A DNA stretch of 51,300 bases from Bacillota bacterium (GTDB lineage Bacteria; Bacillota; DTU065). The notes below the pieces were generated by a model. The model ran no database searches and had not been told where the DNA came from. It saw nothing but the letters and a program-made list of their open reading frames with translations. Positions 31,836-51,300 of this stretch are shown here, in pieces. Positions within the stretch are counted from its first letter, which is position 1. The number at the start of each line of letters is the position of its first letter. The DNA lies in NCBI GenBank assembly GCA_018435125.1, contig JAHDNZ010000045.1:1-51300 (forward strand), in the 5' to 3' direction. The position numbers were made by a program, and so were the translations under genes.

Positions 31836-33131
31836 TTAGTTGGCTGGTAATTTATCTAAATATCTTTTAAACTCTCTTGCTTTTCTTTGCATTTCATCGG
31901 TTACTTCTTTGGCTGCTTTGCGGATAGCCTTTTCAGGGTTTTCGCCATTTAAGACAACTGAAACAGTGGCATTGTCTACATATCTCCAGACAGTTTCGCC
32001 GCCAAGAGCAAAAGGAATACCAATATCTTCTTCTAATTGATTCATAAGAACTGCTCTGTCTTCGGGTTTGATATCCATTTTAGCCATAGCTTTCATATTG
32101 GGAGAGATATGATATGTGCCCGGTAATTTGGAATGAAATTCAGTAGTGTAAAGGGTTTGGATCTCTTCGCTGGTGAACCATTTGATCCATTCAAAAGCTT
32201 CCTGGTGCATCTTAGATTTCTCAAAGATAGCAAAATTATTAGTGCCGAGGTAGCCTGAGTGGTTAATAGTGCCATCTTTGCGAATTGTGCCGGGTAATAA
32301 GCTGGTTTGCCATTTACCTTTAAGTTCAGGTGAACCAACAGCAAAACCACCATAGACAATGGTTGTGGAGCCGCAAAGGTAGGGAATATCACCTTGACGA
32401 AAATCCTGATAGGGTTGAATTGCCTTTGGAACACCATGTTTGGTAAATAGTTCGGTAAATCGACTAAATCCATCTATAGACTCAGGCGTATCTAAAGTAG
32501 ACTTTGTACCGCCGGGTAAATAGACATCACCCCCGGCTTGTCTTAAAAAGGCAGAAGCAACAAACCAAGTTAGACCATCTACACCATAAAAGATACCGAA
32601 ATTCATATTCTTAGCTTGCATTTTAGGCAAGATCTTATAAAGTTCATCCCAGGTCTTAGCTTCTTCCCAACCATTTTCCTGAAAGATATCGGTACGAATG
32701 AAAGCTTGCATATTGCCTAATTCAGCAGGTACACCCCAAGTAGTACCCTTGAAATTTAATGGTTGTATGGAGCCGGGGTACATTCTGGCAAGCACAGCTT
32801 TTGCTTCGGTTGGGAAAGCTTTAGCTAGATCTAGGATACCGCCTCTTAAACCAAACTCTCCTTGCCAGGTTGAACCCATTTGGGCAATATCAGGTATATC
32901 CCCGGAGGCCAGTGCTAAATAAATCTTAGACATAGCATCTTCCCAATTCATAAGAGAAAAGCTGGCATTTACACCTGTTTTGGGGGTGAAATACTGTTCG
33001 GTTAGTGTTTTAATGATCTTTGCTTTTTCCGTAGATGCTACCAGCCATATTTCTAGATCTTTGGCACCTACCATTACACAACCAAATAAAAGGAAAATAG
33101 AAATAATAATGGCCAAATAAAGTTTTTTCAT
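31836..33131 (-). CDS. ABC-transporter sugar-binding lipoprotein, copy 1
   Basis: A 431-residue extracellular solute-binding protein of the family 1 type, which captures a sugar or oligosaccharide for an ABC importer. The signal peptide ends in a lipobox (LLFGC, Cys18), so it is membrane-anchored. The mature part starts DLEIWLVAS and has NMQAFIRTDIF, GYLGTNNFAIF and a long C-terminal helix pair ending DKLPAN. It is clearly a paralogue of the protein encoded just upstream (33.3-34.6 kb). No permease or ATPase gene is beside it. It is likely monocistronic, with its own terminator. Confidence 0.88.
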   Translation of the reverse strand: MKKLYLAIIISIFLLFGCVMVGAKDLEIWLVASTEKAKIIKTLTEQYFTPKTGVNASFSLMNWEDAMSKIYLALASGDIPDIAQMGSTWQGEFGLRGGILDLAKAFPTEAKAVLARMYPGSIQPLNFKGTTWGVPAELGNMQAFIRTDIFQENGWEEAKTWDELYKILPKMQAKNMNFGIFYGVDGLTWFVASAFLRQAGGDVYLPGGTKSTLDTPESIDGFSRFTELFTKHGVPKAIQPYQDFRQGDIPYLCGSTTIVYGGFAVGSPELKGKWQTSLLPGTIRKDGTINHSGYLGTNNFAIFEKSKMHQEAFEWIKWFTSEEIQTLYTTEFHSKLPGTYHISPNMKAMAKMDIKPEDRAVLMNQLEEDIGIPFALGGETVWRYVDNATVSVVLNGENPEKAIRKAAKEVTDEMQRKAREFKRYLDKLPAN

Positions 33132-33251
33132 ATTGTTACCTCCTCAATTCCTTGGGTTCTTGGTTATAGAGAAGATCCCTTTTTGCTTTAAGCAAAAAAG
33201 CACTTAAATTGAGGTCTTAATCAAGCTAGAAAATGTAATAGTTATCTAAAA

Positions 33252-33288
33252 TAAAAACCTCCTAAAGTAGATTCCACTTTAGGAGGTT
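33252..33288 (-). terminator. Terminator of solute-binding protein gene 2
   Basis: AACCTCCTAAAGT and ACTTTAGGAGGTT form a perfect 13-bp stem. Read on the minus strand it is followed by TTTTATTTT. Confidence 0.88.
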
Positions 33289-33298
33289 GAAAGCTTAA

Positions 33299-34591
33299 TT
33301 AATTAGCAGGTAAATCCTTTAGAAATCTGGCAAACTCTTTAGCTTTTCTTTGCATTTCATCGGTAACTTCCTTAGCCGCTTTGCGGATAGCCTTTTCAGG
33401 GTCTTCACCATTTAAGACAACTGAGGCTGTGGCATTGTCTACATATCTCCAGACATATTCACCCCCAAGAGCGAAAGGAATGCCGATATCCTCTTTGAGT
33501 TGTTTCATAAGAATAGTTCTATGTTCCGTGGGTATGCCCATGTTGGCCATAGCTTCGATATTTGGTGACTGGTGGAAAGAACCTGGCAATCTTTCTTCAT
33601 ATTGCTTTTGATAGATGGTCTGGATTTCAGCACTGGTAAACCACTTGATCCATTCAAAGGCTTCTTTTTTGTTCTTGGTTTTTTCAAAGATAGCAAAGTT
33701 GTTAGTGCCTAAGTAACCGGAATGGCTAATAGTACCGTCTTTGCGAATCGTTCCGGGTATTAAAGCGGTAGTCCACTTTCCTTTTAGCTCGGGGGCGGCG
33801 TACATATAGGCACCATAGACAACTCTGGTTGAAATAACAAGAAAAGGTACATAACCACGTTTAAAATCTTCTAATTGATGAATTTGTTTGGGAACACCAT
33901 GTTTGGTAAATAGTTCAGTAAAGCGAATAAAGCCATCAATTGATTCCGGGCTATCTAAAATCGATTTTTCGCCACCCGGTTTATAAATATCACCACCGGC
34001 TTGACGTAAGAAGGCTGAGGCGACAAACCAGCTAATGCCATTTTGCCCGTAATTAATACCAAAGTCCATACTTTTTGCTTTCATTTTAGGAATTATCTTG
34101 TAGAGATCTTCCCAGGTATTTGGAACTGTCCACCCGTTATCTTTGAAAATATCGGTTCTGACATAAGCCTGCATATTACCAAGTTCAGCCGGAATTCCCC
34201 AGGTAGTTCCTCTAAAATCCAAAGGTGTAAGTGCGCCTTTATACATGCCACTTAAAATGGCTTTAGTTTCGTTAGGGAAAGCTTTGCCTAAATCTAAAAT
34301 ACCACCCCTAAGACCATACTCCCCTTGCCAAGTAGAGCCCATTTGCGCCATGTCAGGAACATCACCAGAGGCTAGAGCCAAATAGATTCTACTGTTGGCA
34401 TCTTCCCAGGTCATGGTAGAAAAATTAACATTAACACCTGTTTTCGAAGTAAAATATTGATTAGTAAGATCCTTAATGAGGCGAGCCTTTTCACTAGAAG
34501 CTACTAACCAGATCTCTAGATCTTTAGAGCTGACACTAATAGTTGTAAGCAGTAAGACAATTAGCAGTAAAGCAAGCGATACTCTTTTCAT
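33299..34591 (-). CDS. ABC-transporter sugar-binding protein, copy 2
   Basis: A 430-residue paralogue of the neighbouring binding protein, with the same blocks (DLEIWLVAS, MQAYVRTDIF, GYLGTNNFAIF, RKAAKEVTDEMQRKA). The proteins are estimated by eye at about 70 percent identical, and the genes are similar at DNA level too, so the duplication is fairly recent. Unlike copy 1, its signal peptide (LLTTISVSS) has no lipobox Cys, so this copy may be freely secreted or held in another way. Differences lie in the ligand-contact parts of the middle region, so the ligands may differ. Confidence 0.87.
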   Translation of the reverse strand: MKRVSLALLLIVLLLTTISVSSKDLEIWLVASSEKARLIKDLTNQYFTSKTGVNVNFSTMTWEDANSRIYLALASGDVPDMAQMGSTWQGEYGLRGGILDLGKAFPNETKAILSGMYKGALTPLDFRGTTWGIPAELGNMQAYVRTDIFKDNGWTVPNTWEDLYKIIPKMKAKSMDFGINYGQNGISWFVASAFLRQAGGDIYKPGGEKSILDSPESIDGFIRFTELFTKHGVPKQIHQLEDFKRGYVPFLVISTRVVYGAYMYAAPELKGKWTTALIPGTIRKDGTISHSGYLGTNNFAIFEKTKNKKEAFEWIKWFTSAEIQTIYQKQYEERLPGSFHQSPNIEAMANMGIPTEHRTILMKQLKEDIGIPFALGGEYVWRYVDNATASVVLNGEDPEKAIRKAAKEVTDEMQRKAKEFARFLKDLPAN

Positions 34592-34811
34592 GAAAACTCC
34601 TCCTGCAAGAATATTTGTTAATTTCTTCTTCGCTAATAAAAAGAATAAACCTTTCTTACAGATGACAGAGTAATAAGAATTTGAAAGTTAATATATAAGT
34701 TATATTAGTAGTAGAAATATTAGTATAGCCAAGGAGGGAAATAATAATTTTTCAAGAATACTTCAAATACATAAAGTCCCGGTTATGGCCGAGACAGCAT
34801 AGATGTGCATC

Positions 34812-34864
34812 AGAAGAGGGCTCTTTTAAAGGGAGTCCTCTTCTTTTTCCGGGGGAAAGAGAAG
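34812..34864 (+). promoter_or_regulatory. Attenuator-like leader of the exported operon
   Basis: AGAAGAGG (34812-34819) pairs with CCTCTTCT (34837-34844), extended by GCTC/GGAG(T), and is followed by TTTT: a terminator 24 bases before a start codon. The 3' part of that stem plus the T run, CTTCTTTTTCC (34840-34850), can pair instead with GGAAAGAGAAG (34854-34864), which covers the ribosome binding site. The two folds exclude each other. An upstream AAGGAGGG (34731-34738) has no normal start codon behind it. Confidence 0.5.
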
Positions 34865-34871
34865 GTGTTTT

Positions 34872-35630
34872 ATGAAGCTAATTATACTGGTAATTGCTTT
34901 AGTCATCTCTTTACAGTCTCAAGCCAGCTTAATAATCTCTCCGGCGATCTTTGAAGGCTGTAGAGGAGATTACCCTAATAATTTGACGGTAAATGTCTAT
35001 AACCAAGGTAATGAGACAATAGCTGTTGAGGTAGAAGTTTTTAATCTGTCACAAAATATTAAGGGTTTAGTACAGTTAAGTCCGGTTGAAAAACCTATTT
35101 TGAGGCCGGAGACTGACAGGTTTAAGGTCCCGGCAAAAGCTAAAGTTGGTTTCAATTTTAAGATAGAAGATCCAAATAAGGCTGTCTACCAAGCAGTGGT
35201 TTTTAAAAAAACAGGTGCTCAAAAAGGTATAGTTTCTCAAGGTATGGTAATTCTTTTTATGCTTGCTTTGGACCAAGAAACTGTTAATGGGAAAATTTGT
35301 GATTTAAGTCTTGTTACAAGTGAAGATTTCCAGCATAAGTTTCTCCGGCTTACAGTGGAGAATGAGGGTTTATGCCATTTCAAAACAGAAGGAGTTTTTG
35401 AATTATTAGATCAAAAGGGTACAAGAAGAGAAGTGGTTTTGCTAGATGGAGGTATTGTCCTACCAGGTGCTAAAAGGGAGTTTAGAGGAGAAGTGCTTAC
35501 AGAAATTAAAAAGAGCAGTTTAGTTAAAGGAGAAGTGTTTTTTAATCTTGCTACAAATAGCCATAGCTGCAATATCGAACTTCAATCACTTGAAGCCTTT
35601 GAGAGGTTACAATCAGTAAAATGGAACTGA
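34872..35630 (+). CDS. Exported two-Ig-domain chaperone-like protein
   Basis: A 252-residue secreted protein with a signal peptide ending at QAS. The first domain (about 20-135) has the look of a DUF916/PapD-like Ig fold: VNVYNQGNETIAVEVEVFN, then FKVPAKAKVGFNFKIEDPN and a short GMVILFMLALDQ strand. The second domain (about 140-245) is also beta-rich (FLRLTVENEG, VLPGAKREFRGEV). Two Ig domains in this size recall pilus chaperones or the WxL-interacting proteins of Bacillota. This is a structural likeness, not a proven homology. The gene overlaps the next by about 10 bases. Confidence 0.6.
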   Translation: MKLIILVIALVISLQSQASLIISPAIFEGCRGDYPNNLTVNVYNQGNETIAVEVEVFNLSQNIKGLVQLSPVEKPILRPETDRFKVPAKAKVGFNFKIEDPNKAVYQAVVFKKTGAQKGIVSQGMVILFMLALDQETVNGKICDLSLVTSEDFQHKFLRLTVENEGLCHFKTEGVFELLDQKGTRREVVLLDGGIVLPGAKREFRGEVLTEIKKSSLVKGEVFFNLATNSHSCNIELQSLEAFERLQSVKWN

Positions 35631-38600
35631 TATTATTAATGGTGTTTCTTCTGACACTACCAGCTGCTACAGAGCAAAAGATACTTTTCCTTAATCTAAA
35701 TGGCACTCCTTTAAATAATACCGAAATAACCAACACCATGGATCTTTATATCGAAAGTGAAACGGATTGGGAGCTAAGTGTTTTAGGGACAGATTTGCAA
35801 ACTATCAAAAATGACAATACCTACCTGCTTCCTTTAGAAAGAATAAGTCTCAAGGTTGATGACGGTAACTGGATGCAACTAAGGAATAGTAAAACAATTT
35901 ATTCTGGTAATGGGCCTTGTTATTTAACCTTGGAATATAAATTTACTCCTACCTGGGAAGATAAGTGCGTGGGGCAAGAATATGCAGGAGAGTTTAATTA
36001 TGCTCTAACAAATGGCAAGCTCTATAGCTCGTCTTTTAAGCCTAGGATTATTACTCCGGGTGAAACCGCTAGTTTAGTCTTTAGTGATTATAACCTGCCT
36101 TGTGCAAAAATTAAGATATTTAAAAAACACGCTGAATTGATAGAGCTAGAGGTTTTTAATACTAATAAATGCTGGATTGAAACCAAAGATCAAAACAGTA
36201 ATTTTTGGGAAGAAGGAGACTATAGCTACGAAGTATTCTCTCAAGAAGCATTAATTACTAAAGGTATATTTGAGGTAAAAAGAGCTCTTGACCTTGGTGA
36301 ACTAAGGGGAAGGCTAAAATATACCAAGCCCTTTTACGGGGGACAACCGTATTTAGAGATCTATGATACGAAAAACAACTTGATCTCAAGAAGAGAAGGA
36401 GACGAGGCAATAAATTATCAGCTTGGTCTTTTAGAGGGTAGCTACTATCTGAAAGCAGGTAGTAAAAATACCTTTCAGGTTGAGCCATTTAGTATTAGAG
36501 CCGGTCAGGTACTGGAAAAAGATATTATTTTTAGACCAGATACTGAACTGGAGCTGGCAGTCAGGGTCTTACCAAAAACAATTAAGCAGGGAAGTAAAGG
36601 TAGGCTTGAAATCGAAATTCGAAACTCTGGTGGTGAGGATTTAAGTGAATTGAGTGTAGCAGTAAAACTACCTGCCGGTTTAGTTTACACTCAAAGTGAA
36701 AGCCTATATTTAAATAAACAGTTTAACAGCCTTAAGAGCGGTTCTAAGCTTAAGCTTACTGAAGAGTTTATTGCTTTGCCCTCTTATAACCGAACTCTTT
36801 TTCCAAGCGGTGAAGTTGAAATTAAAGCTAAGACAAGTCAAAATGTGATCCTTGAAAAAAAAGCGGTTTTTACCGTTGAGGTTAATCCGAGCTTATTTAG
36901 TGAACCGGGTATATTAGTTGGTGAATCCAGCACAGGTTTTTATTTTGCCAACGGTACCTTTATTCAACCGGAAGCTAAATATTTCTGCTTGCAGCTTGAG
37001 CCGGGTAGCTACGGGCTTTTACTTGGGTTAGAGCCATATATATTAAATGTCTCTAGTCTTTCGGAAAGAGTTAAACTACCAAACACAACGGGCAAAAAAG
37101 CAGGGCTATTGGAGCTAAAGGTAGCTATTAATTCTAAGCCTAGAGTCGGACTCAAAGGTTTTTATGTTTCAGATAACCTTAAACTAGCCTTTGCATATCC
37201 AGATTACCAATTAAAACAACCGGATGCTCTTACTCCTTATCCCAATTGGGGAGTTGAAAATAAGATTCTTGTTAAGACACCCTGGCAGTTGAATTATTCT
37301 ACCGGGGAAGGGTCTTTTAATGCTGGTACGGTTTTTTTAAGTCCACCATTGGGAAGAGGCTTTTTACCTCAAGCACTGTTAGGATTAGATGCTGAGTTAA
37401 AAGCCAAAAACGGGGTGCAGCTTAAGACAACAGGTGGATTTCTTCTTGAGGTGAAAAAGCAAGAAGAGTTTCTGGCAGATGGTACCACTGGCCCTTTTAC
37501 TTTAAGTGCTAAACCTAAAGAGGGTTCAGTTAAATTGATTGTTGAAGCTAGAGATAAAAATGGTCATGTAATAAAAAGCTTTTCCTGGGATTATTTTCTG
37601 AATCGAGAGGCGTTAAAATTAAAAAGACCCTTAAGTGCCGAAGATCAGCTGGGATTGACAAATTACCTGGTAGTTTCTTACATTTCAGAATCAACCATCA
37701 GTAATGATATATTTATAGGTGGACATCTAGGTTACACGGATAATAAAAATAGCCTCTATCTATTTAGGCATTTTGAAGATGAAGGAATGGCAGGAAGGCT
37801 TAACTATAAAAAGTGGAGTCTAGAGGGAGTTTTAGGCAAAGATTTGCGTGAAGTGATTATAAGCAGAAAAACTCCAGCTACCCGACAAGATATTAAGATA
37901 AAAACCAGCCAAGAAACAAGTTATAGTTATAGATTAGACTATACCGGCAACTGGTATGGCAGTTTTAATCTCCTTTTTAATCAGGTCAATAGTTTATCAA
38001 ATAAAGCAGAACTTAACTTGAATTTTAAAAATGATCTTGTAAAGGTTTGGCTTACTCAAAGACTTAATCTGCAAAAAGGCTTAGAAGAGATAAACAGCCA
38101 GTACTATCTTTATTCGACAGCGCTTAATTGGCCTGAAAATCTCGTCTGGGGATTAAGCAAAGAAGGTTTTGCTAATAAAACTGTAACTACTTTTTCAAAT
38201 CGGATGCTCTACAAACTTGCTGGCTTTACCGGTTATCTAGAGGGTAACTGGCGCAAAGGCGAACAAGAAAAGCCTAAACTAGCAGTTTCTCTTAAACATG
38301 AAAAAATCCCATTCTCCTTAAAAGCTGAATGGGAGCACATTGAACCACAGTTTTTTTTGTTAGAAGCTTGCTATGATACTAAATTAATCTGGGCTAATAT
38401 TTCTCTTTGCAGAGAAAGAAATAGTCTTAAAAGGACTTTAGGCCTTACGGTGTTACCTAAAGATAGTGTGATCTTTCTGGCTGCTAAAGATGAAGCTATT
38501 AAGACTCAAATCCAGCTTCCTTTTCCAAGGACCCAGTTTAGAATGTCTTTTACAGGGGATCTAAAATCTAAACTAATAGTCTCAGAGGTCGAGATTGATC

Positions 38601-38791
38601 TCAGACTGTCGCCAAACAGCCAAGTCGGTGTGAAGGGTAAATATCTAAGACCATTAAAAAACAATTTCCGGTTACAAGGTTTTTATAGATATCAAAAGGA
38701 CAGCTTTCAGCTAGAAATGCGGCTTGACGAAAGAGAGACCGGCCTGTATTTTACCTATCTTATACCTTTGGGGCAAGCACAGGCCAATTAA
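35621..38791 (+). CDS. Large exported beta-barrel-like protein with CARDB-type domain
   Basis: A 1056-residue secreted protein. A signal peptide (about 1-18) is followed by several Ig-like regions. One of these (about 315-420, LAVRVLPKTIKQGS and LEIEIRNSGGEDLSELSV) looks like a CARDB or NEW3-type domain. From about 676 to the end the sequence turns into alternating polar and apolar strands with many Tyr, Trp and Leu (YLYSTALNWP, GLYFTYLIPL), the pattern of an outer-membrane beta barrel of perhaps 16-20 strands. It lies between the chaperone-like and subunit-like genes, so it may be a surface anchor or usher-like pore. Known FimD-type ushers have their barrel in the middle, so this is not one of those. 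Confidence 0.55.
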   Translation: MELILLMVFLLTLPAATEQKILFLNLNGTPLNNTEITNTMDLYIESETDWELSVLGTDLQTIKNDNTYLLPLERISLKVDDGNWMQLRNSKTIYSGNGPCYLTLEYKFTPTWEDKCVGQEYAGEFNYALTNGKLYSSSFKPRIITPGETASLVFSDYNLPCAKIKIFKKHAELIELEVFNTNKCWIETKDQNSNFWEEGDYSYEVFSQEALITKGIFEVKRALDLGELRGRLKYTKPFYGGQPYLEIYDTKNNLISRREGDEAINYQLGLLEGSYYLKAGSKNTFQVEPFSIRAGQVLEKDIIFRPDTELELAVRVLPKTIKQGSKGRLEIEIRNSGGEDLSELSVAVKLPAGLVYTQSESLYLNKQFNSLKSGSKLKLTEEFIALPSYNRTLFPSGEVEIKAKTSQNVILEKKAVFTVEVNPSLFSEPGILVGESSTGFYFANGTFIQPEAKYFCLQLEPGSYGLLLGLEPYILNVSSLSERVKLPNTTGKKAGLLELKVAINSKPRVGLKGFYVSDNLKLAFAYPDYQLKQPDALTPYPNWGVENKILVKTPWQLNYSTGEGSFNAGTVFLSPPLGRGFLPQALLGLDAELKAKNGVQLKTTGGFLLEVKKQEEFLADGTTGPFTLSAKPKEGSVKLIVEARDKNGHVIKSFSWDYFLNREALKLKRPLSAEDQLGLTNYLVVSYISESTISNDIFIGGHLGYTDNKNSLYLFRHFEDEGMAGRLNYKKWSLEGVLGKDLREVIISRKTPATRQDIKIKTSQETSYSYRLDYTGNWYGSFNLLFNQVNSLSNKAELNLNFKNDLVKVWLTQRLNLQKGLEEINSQYYLYSTALNWPENLVWGLSKEGFANKTVTTFSNRMLYKLAGFTGYLEGNWRKGEQEKPKLAVSLKHEKIPFSLKAEWEHIEPQFFLLEACYDTKLIWANISLCRERNSLKRTLGLTVLPKDSVIFLAAKDEAIKTQIQLPFPRTQFRMSFTGDLKSKLIVSEVEIDLRLSPNSQVGVKGKYLRPLKNNFRLQGFYRYQKDSFQLEMRLDERETGLYFTYLIPLGQAQAN

Positions 38792-38830
38792 CCTCAAAAC
38801 CGGCATTTATCTCTAGAGAGGATGATTAAA

Positions 38831-39331
38831 GTGAAAAAGAGACTGATGCTGATTGTTCTGGTATTTGGTATGGCAACTTTATGCATTTCAGCTGAGAGTT
38901 TTAGTCAAAGGGTATTAGCTAATATTCAACCAGCCTTACAGGTGATCTGGCCTGAAGCAGAGCTAAGTTTTGGTCAGCTCACAATTGGCCTAAACGAATC
39001 TGCTACCATTCAACTTAAGGTATTGGCTAATGTAGGTTACAATGTTATTTTGGAAACAAATAATCCTAATCTGAAAGAGTACATTGTGGAAACAGGAGCG
39101 TATGGTGTAAACAAACTAAAAGAAGTTTTACAGATCAGTACCGACGATGGTCTTAACTGGTTAACGGTAGAAAAGTCGATGATTTTGATTAGCAAACCTG
39201 AAGGCTCTCCGGTTGAGGATATCTACAAGATTAAGTATCAGCAGGTGATGACTTTTCCAGCTGACAAAGCTTTAAATGAAGGTTCTTATTACACTACTGA
39301 GATAACACTTTTAGTCACACCACTTATTTAA
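38831..39331 (+). CDS. Small exported beta-rich subunit-like protein
   Basis: A 166-residue secreted protein, with signal peptide ending at SAES, then one beta-rich domain: ALQVIWPEAELSFG, a strand TIQLKVLANVGYNVILETNN, and a last strand EGSYYTTEITLLVTPLI. This end, with regular alternation and a conserved Tyr, recalls pilin-like SCPU domains and WxL domains. GTG 38831, behind GAGAGG, is preferred to ATG 38822, which has the ribosome binding site directly abutting it. It is the last gene of the operon, 39 bases after the barrel gene. A polymerising or surface-coat role is inferred. Confidence 0.55.
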   Translation: MKKRLMLIVLVFGMATLCISAESFSQRVLANIQPALQVIWPEAELSFGQLTIGLNESATIQLKVLANVGYNVILETNNPNLKEYIVETGAYGVNKLKEVLQISTDDGLNWLTVEKSMILISKPEGSPVEDIYKIKYQQVMTFPADKALNEGSYYTTEITLLVTPLI

Positions 39332-50773: not shown

Positions 50774-51300
50774 CGTGTGCTACGCATGGCGATTAACTAG
50801 ATGGTGAAAGTCCGTTATGGGGGTATGTAGCAATCAACCATTAGCTCAAGGCAAGGGTGTCCACCGCGAGGTGGAATCTGAAGGAAGCCAGCGGCAAAGT
50901 TCCGACCTGAGGGACACGAACACTATTAGGCGCAAAACGTGGAGTAAGACTGCTAGACAAGTTGAAGCCCTAAAGCTACACGGACACGTTAGCGTAAATG
51001 GTGCGGGTACATGGAACGAAAGTGAATCGTCTTACCGTGGGAGGCCTCACGGACAAGTGAGAACAGAGTAAGAAACCTGGTTGAAACAAGATTTATCGTG
51101 AGGAGTCAGTAGAAGCCATAGCACTAAAGTGTTCTGATACCAAAGGAAGGGCTGAACCAAAGGCGGTGTGGGTCAATGAAAGTTACTGACAGTGGTAATT
51201 TAAAACACAGACAACTTCGATTTGAAGACTATCTGCAAAGGGTATCTGCGGAACAGAAAGAGTATGCAGAAGTGTGCGTGCCACCTAAGATGACTGAAAA
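50774..51300 (+). mobile_element. Group II intron, 5' part
   Basis: The intron starts with GTGTG, the required 5' consensus, followed by GCTACGCATGGCGATTAAC and TAGATGGTGAAAGTCC, sequences typical of domain I of bacterial group II introns. A structured RNA of about 400 bases precedes the maturase gene. The intron begins three bases after a terminator, the site preference described for group IIC introns, though the class itself is not proven. It runs past the window end. Confidence 0.88.
51176..51300 (+). CDS. ltrA: Group II intron reverse transcriptase/maturase, N-terminal part
   Basis: The frame opens at ATG 51176 and stays open to the window end (41 residues), beginning MKVTDSGNLKHRQLRFEDYL. 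It is at the place where the intron-encoded protein starts in bacterial group II introns. That protein would splice and move the intron. The domain that would prove it, reverse transcriptase, lies outside the window. Confidence 0.7.
   Translation, partial: MKVTDSGNLKHRQLRFEDYLQRVSAEQKEYAEVCVPPKMTE

Follow-up and report, generated by a model that had tools for sequence, protein, structure and literature searches.

What do three adjacent genes for exported proteins in a Bacillota genome assemble, if anything, at the cell surface? The genes lie in contig JAHDNZ010000045.1 of assembly GCA_018435125.1 (lineage DTU065). A stretch of 51,300 nucleotides (positions 1 to 51,300) was analyzed and is called the window here. 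A first-pass annotation, made from the sequence alone, had described the products as chaperone-like, barrel-like and subunit-like, and had compared them with chaperone-usher systems and with the DUF916-WxL pairs of Bacillota. Fibres built by chaperone-usher systems, as in E. coli, are among the main kinds found on bacterial surfaces; descriptions of such systems so far come only from phyla other than Bacillota, most members of which have a single membrane. We propose, with a probability of roughly 55%, that the operon encodes a divergent chaperone-usher-like assembly system in outer-membrane-bearing Bacillota. Each of the three proteins, named P1, P2 and P3, was distantly similar to the matching part of such systems. 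If this is true, a diverged version exists in at least five diderm Bacillota families, is unseen by current family models, and widens the reach of the pathway.

The open reading frame list of the stretch gave three closely spaced genes on the plus strand. P1 (34872-35630, +) encodes 252 residues with two predicted immunoglobulin (Ig)-like domains and is the proposed periplasmic chaperone or adaptor. P2 (35621-38791, +) encodes 1056 residues and is the proposed usher-like outer-membrane assembly platform; its start overlaps the end of P1 by 10 nucleotides. P3 (38831-39331, +) encodes a putative pilin-like exported subunit of 166 residues. Two start codons are candidates for P3, ATG at 38822 and GTG at 38831. 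The GTG, which gives 166 residues, is the likelier start because GAGG stands about 10 nucleotides upstream and the relatives begin there. With this start, the three exported-type genes and their sizes were as first annotated. By eye, without a predictor, all three N-termini had a hydrophobic stretch and a plausible signal peptidase I site, and all three proteins are apparently exported. No Pfam or NCBIfam model scored above its own cut-off for P1, P2 or P3 of the window.

The structure of P3 was modeled with AlphaFold from four sequences. The mean predicted local distance difference test score (pLDDT) was 67 and the predicted template-modeling score was 0.58; the other four of the five models were less confident. 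Foldseek was run with the model against 350,542 PDB chains. FimA took ranks 1 to 3 (E 1.7e-4, 3.8e-4 and 5.4e-3), followed by CsuA/B, FimG, EcpA, the pilin domain of PapG, and CsuE, and many chaperone-usher pilins were in the top 30. Because the template-modeling (TM) scores were about 0.4, the model gives a strong hint of a pilin-like fold, not a proof. After the signal peptide, residues F27, Q29, V31, A33, P37, V41 and W43 (169-residue numbering) were invariant. The segment with these alternating conserved residues, ESFSQRVLANIQPALQVIW (38894-38950, +), was aligned by hhalign with the N-terminal extension and first strand of FimA. A donor strand followed by a first strand would be expected to show such an alternation, and the segment is a candidate for the two.

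A profile was built from 21 P1 sequences and compared with known families by hhalign. It matched nine E. coli K-12 chaperones over 171 columns covering both domains (Prob 87, P 3.9e-6), and it gave no score against fimbrial subunits or ushers. The null consisted of 60 column shuffles and was lenient; the observed scores, those with the WxLIP family included, were above every shuffle.

In P2, AlphaFold was run with five sequences. Residues 21-430 (35681-36910, +) formed predicted N-terminal β-sandwich domains, which we propose to be periplasmic, with pLDDT mostly 55-87 and short dips below 50. The N-terminal part of P2 relatives had FlgD_ig, CarboxypepD_reg and DUF11 domains above Pfam cut-offs. 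A CARDB-type part had been annotated in P2. In the window copy, the DUF11/CARDB-type match reached only E 0.027; one relative had DUF11 above the cut-off (E 4.6e-13) and another had a sub-threshold match (E 4.3e-4).

Chaperone-usher ushers have a 24-stranded outer-membrane barrel with an inserted plug domain. In the P2 model, a plug-like domain (residues 616-690; 37466-37690, +; motif ADGTTGPF...SVKLIVEARDKNG; pLDDT 71-82) was inserted between strand-rich segments. A nine-sequence profile of this domain was searched against 177,635 PDB sequences, and the best sequence match was the plug (middle) domain of the Caf1A usher, 3fcg_A, at E 0.15. By hhalign, the domain matched an E. coli usher plug with P 0.001, the second best of 280 segment pairs. 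Another protein of this genome that is predicted to lie in the outer membrane had no usher-plug match (best segment score 18.6 vs 26.6). The top segment pair, P2 170-269 with the usher N-terminal domain, covered 34 columns with a generic 'PG-Y' pattern and was discounted.

DSSP on the model assigned about 26 short strands after the plug-like domain and about 6 before it. The predicted barrel strands after the domain (residues 692-1051; 37694-38773, +) end in the β-signal-like ETGLYFTY, and the C-terminal TG.Y.TYLIPLG was invariant in three full-length P2 sequences. The first-pass annotation had placed a barrel at the C-terminus of P2 and had held this position, C-terminal and not central, against an usher. 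The barrel fold was not confirmed; because pLDDT was below 50 in the C-terminal part outside the plug-like domain, including the strands after residue 690, a barrel in P2 is putative only. The objection itself lost weight, since the plug-like domain sits inside the strand-rich part, as in ushers. Foldseek matches of the P2 model (multi-Ig proteins, with PapC at rank 44) were left unused owing to the same C-terminal pLDDT, and an amphipathic-alternation profile did not discriminate between the N- and C-terminal halves of P2.

An assembly platform of this kind would need an outer membrane, and the first-pass annotation had made its reading conditional on a diderm host. The host genome had LptF/G, an LpxD-like acyltransferase, OmpH-like protein, BamA with POTRA domains, and TamB in one cluster (L017 1-14694; G000:C43). 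By this gene content the host is a diderm Bacillota. A 775-residue protein adjoining LptF/G in the cluster had no Pfam match at the 1e-5 limit.

Of 398 genomes sampled from the phylum, 101 had Omp85. All genomes with P2 (22/22) and all genomes with P3 (15/15) were Omp85-positive, as were 64 of the 71 genomes with P1-type proteins; these counts are not independent events because the genomes are related. The other seven (G024, G027, G163, G211, G278, G365 and G389) had P1-type matches and no Omp85 match. An outer membrane is therefore not a strict requirement for P1-type Ig proteins. A P2 match in G163, one of the Omp85-negative genomes, covered only a CARDB-like stretch and was discounted.

The P1-P2-P3 order and the flanking genes were kept in four other genomes of the host family (31-51% identity), five genomes in total. 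The carriers include the uncultured Bacillota assemblies Clostridia bacterium DTU065, Firmicutes bacterium UBA4881, and two more. P2 of the four relatives was about 40-50% identical to the window copy. A GH38 gene stood on one flank and, where the contig reached, a solute-binding protein gene on the other. The operon is therefore not a chance arrangement, and the search for the same gene order that had been advised for this locus gave a positive answer.

The phylum was also searched with P2 of a second family and the P3 profile. Sets in the order P3-P1-P2 were found in at least four further Bacillota families, flanked by quite different genes than in the host family. Homology across families was supported for P3 (blastp E 4e-6; hhalign Prob 96), P2 (blastp E 1e-11; hhalign Prob 97) and P1 (hhalign Prob 83). 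A contig scan with a single P2 sequence as query gave no matches, and a scan of viral contigs gave none either. In two genomes of family f49 (L088 11987-13570 and L089 502-2100), the gene in the place of P3 encoded 527-532 residues with apparently repeated domains, and the P3 profile did not match it.

These results suggested the following working model. In the periplasm, P1 would capture P3 after its export and shield the incomplete Ig-like fold of this subunit. The N-terminal domains of P2 would take up the P1-P3 complexes, and P2 would form an outer-membrane barrel closed by the inserted plug domain. P3 would be released through P2 and would polymerize by donor-strand exchange via its conserved N-terminal strand. 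The product would be a surface fibre or polymer.

Several observations weigh against this model. With E allowed up to 10, Usher PF00577 did not match P2 and PapD did not match P1; PF00577 also had no match elsewhere in the genome. In classical chaperones, a conserved arginine (Arg8 in FimC) anchors the C-terminus of the subunit. At the aligned position, P1 proteins of the host family have Ile or Phe, and 7 of the 21 P1 sequences have Arg. Non-classical chaperones rely on a different anchor (PMC4654587). The Caf1A plug match was not significant alone, the TM scores of the P3 matches were modest, and the strands proposed for the P2 barrel were predicted at low pLDDT. Two further families had a P3-P1 pair with no adjacent P2. 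Finally, P1 matched another family, WxLIP, better than it matched chaperones. We regard the system as chaperone-usher-like in its working and not as a proven member of the pathway, because the Usher model gave no match and the classical chaperone anchor was mostly missing. Of the chaperone, usher and subunit roles first suggested for the three proteins, each gained independent support, while PF00577 and the classical arginine did not back them.

The P3-P1 pairs with no adjoining P2 were L084, L085, L086 and L090 in family f62 and L083 in family f72. By eye, they lie between TatD-like and GlpX-like genes, and all of these genomes were Omp85-positive. P2 may be elsewhere in them or diverged.

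The WxLIP match gave rise to the best-surviving alternative, in which the operon encodes a surface complex of the WxLIP kind that was relocated to the outer membrane, and P1 is an adaptor that joins P3 and P2 in a fixed glycan- or surface-binding complex, with no polymerization. The P1 profile matched seven WxLIP (DUF916/DUF3324) proteins with Prob 96 and P 5e-9, its best profile match. Among PDB matches of P1, the natural proteins were structures of EfmWxLIP1 (E 0.006-0.008, full length), and the other three were designed Ig proteins. WxLIP PF06030 was the only Pfam match (E 0.081, below cut-off). Csc/WxL clusters are also linked to carbohydrate use (PMC1534035), and the operon adjoins GH38 and solute-binding genes. 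However, the P3 model resembles chaperone-usher pilins, and P3 was rejected as a WxL domain (no WxL motif; hhalign against WxL, Prob 1.5). The C-terminus of P1 also has no hydrophobic segment in its sequence and so, unlike WxLIP, no membrane anchor there. We consider this alternative possible but unlikely. The earlier DUF916-WxL comparison thus stood for P1 and failed for P3. The two Ig domains annotated in P1 were supported by its profile matches to chaperones, WxLIP and EfmWxLIP1.

WxLIP and chaperones compared directly reached Prob 5 only. P1 may be an evolutionary bridge, and a marker for the change of surface organelles upon outer-membrane loss, because it is closer to PapD-type chaperones and to WxLIP than those are to each other. 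A rather unlikely extension is that the operon represents a deep branch linking the diderm chaperone-usher pathway with the WxLIP/WxL complexes on the surface of monoderm Bacillota. In lineages that retained the outer membrane, an ancestral pair of Ig chaperone and β-subunit would have kept an assembly platform in it; in lineages without one, the pair would have turned into a complex bound to the wall.

Comparison with known systems gave likeness on both sides. Chaperone-usher systems (classical Fim, archaic Csu and alternative Ecp) resemble the operon in its gene set, read as a putative two-domain chaperone, a large predicted outer-membrane protein and a small pilin-like subunit. Further likenesses are a candidate plug-like domain inside a strand-rich part, a subunit model closest to FimA, and a diderm host. 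Differences are that the operon proteins have no Usher or PapD Pfam match and P1 mostly has no chaperone arginine, that P2 carries additional domains of about 430 residues at its N-terminus and lacks C-terminal domains, and that the operon host is in Bacillota. Structural work on the archaic and alternative pathways lists archaic systems in Proteobacteria, Cyanobacteria and Deinococcus-Thermus (PMC4654587), and the chaperone-usher pathway was not included in a survey of secretion systems in diderms (PMC4793230). In the literature searched, whose coverage was incomplete, no report of a chaperone-usher system in Bacillota was found. The WxL/WxLIP (csc) clusters of monoderm Bacillota share a probable distant relative of P1 (DUF916 + DUF3324), a small exported β-rich partner and a carbohydrate setting. 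In contrast, P3 has no WxL domain, P1 has no membrane anchor, the operon includes a putative outer-membrane protein, and the host is diderm. Large outer-membrane proteins with FlgD_ig, CarboxypepD_reg and DUF11 share these domains with P2 relatives, but the domains are generic, and none covers the barrel part or the plug-like domain of P2.

The neighboring genes raised a further alternative, that P2 serves glycan foraging, either as an outer-membrane channel or as a surface adhesin, and that P1 and P3 have accessory roles in the periplasm or at the surface rather than acting as chaperone and subunit. Two similar tandem solute-binding protein genes (31836-34591, -) lie upstream of P1, a DUF6259 protein gene lies further upstream, and a GH38 α-mannosidase gene lies downstream of the operon. 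As judged from these predicted products, the surroundings are a glycan-use neighborhood. The conserved solute-binding and GH38 neighbors, the nearby DUF6259 protein, and the long Ig/DUF11-type parts of P2 relatives, which are common in adhesins, agree with a foraging role. However, the glycan setting is local, because other families carry the set beside quite different genes, and the P1-P3 pair is kept even where P2 is missing. We judge this explanation improbable. For the proposed chaperone-usher-like system, the solute-binding and GH38 neighbors hint at a role of the fibre in glycan binding but are no proof of it.

A chance likeness of generic Ig-like β-sandwiches could account for the weak single matches (plug, E 0.15; P3, TM about 0.4) and for the short, generic match of the P2 N-terminus to the usher N-terminal domain, but it is very improbable, since three proteins of one operon each matched the corresponding part and not the others.

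A structured leader RNA of about 84 nucleotides (34777-34860, +) was found directly upstream of P1 and was conserved in all five host-family genomes. It consists of an invariant CCCGG/CCGGG closing stem and a long hairpin, and the ribosome-binding site follows just past the stem. RNAalifold predicted 24 base pairs from the five genomes, and in 6 of these both partners had changed. A covariance model gave one match per genome, always before P1 (E 1e-16 to 6e-19), and the next-best match in the five genomes had E 0.9. Rfam gave only noise for the leader. Two mutually exclusive pairings are possible, GUCC/GGAC or CCCGG/CCGGG. The leader RNA probably controls translation of the operon.

The host genome also has a second P1-type locus (L129 6352-11564; G000:C47), with a counterpart in another genome (L130 5535-10683; G003:C5). 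It encodes two small exported β-rich proteins (239 and 254 residues), a P1 paralogue of 256 residues (Prob 98 by hhalign against the P1 family), and a predicted outer-membrane protein of 946 residues whose N-terminus is Cu_amine_oxidN1-like and whose C-terminal domains are SdrD_B-like. In G003 the four genes are colinear. The layout is usher-like by eye; no usher profile matched. Near the window end, group II intron RNA domains (Rfam RF02001 and RF01998) were found at 50860-51152.

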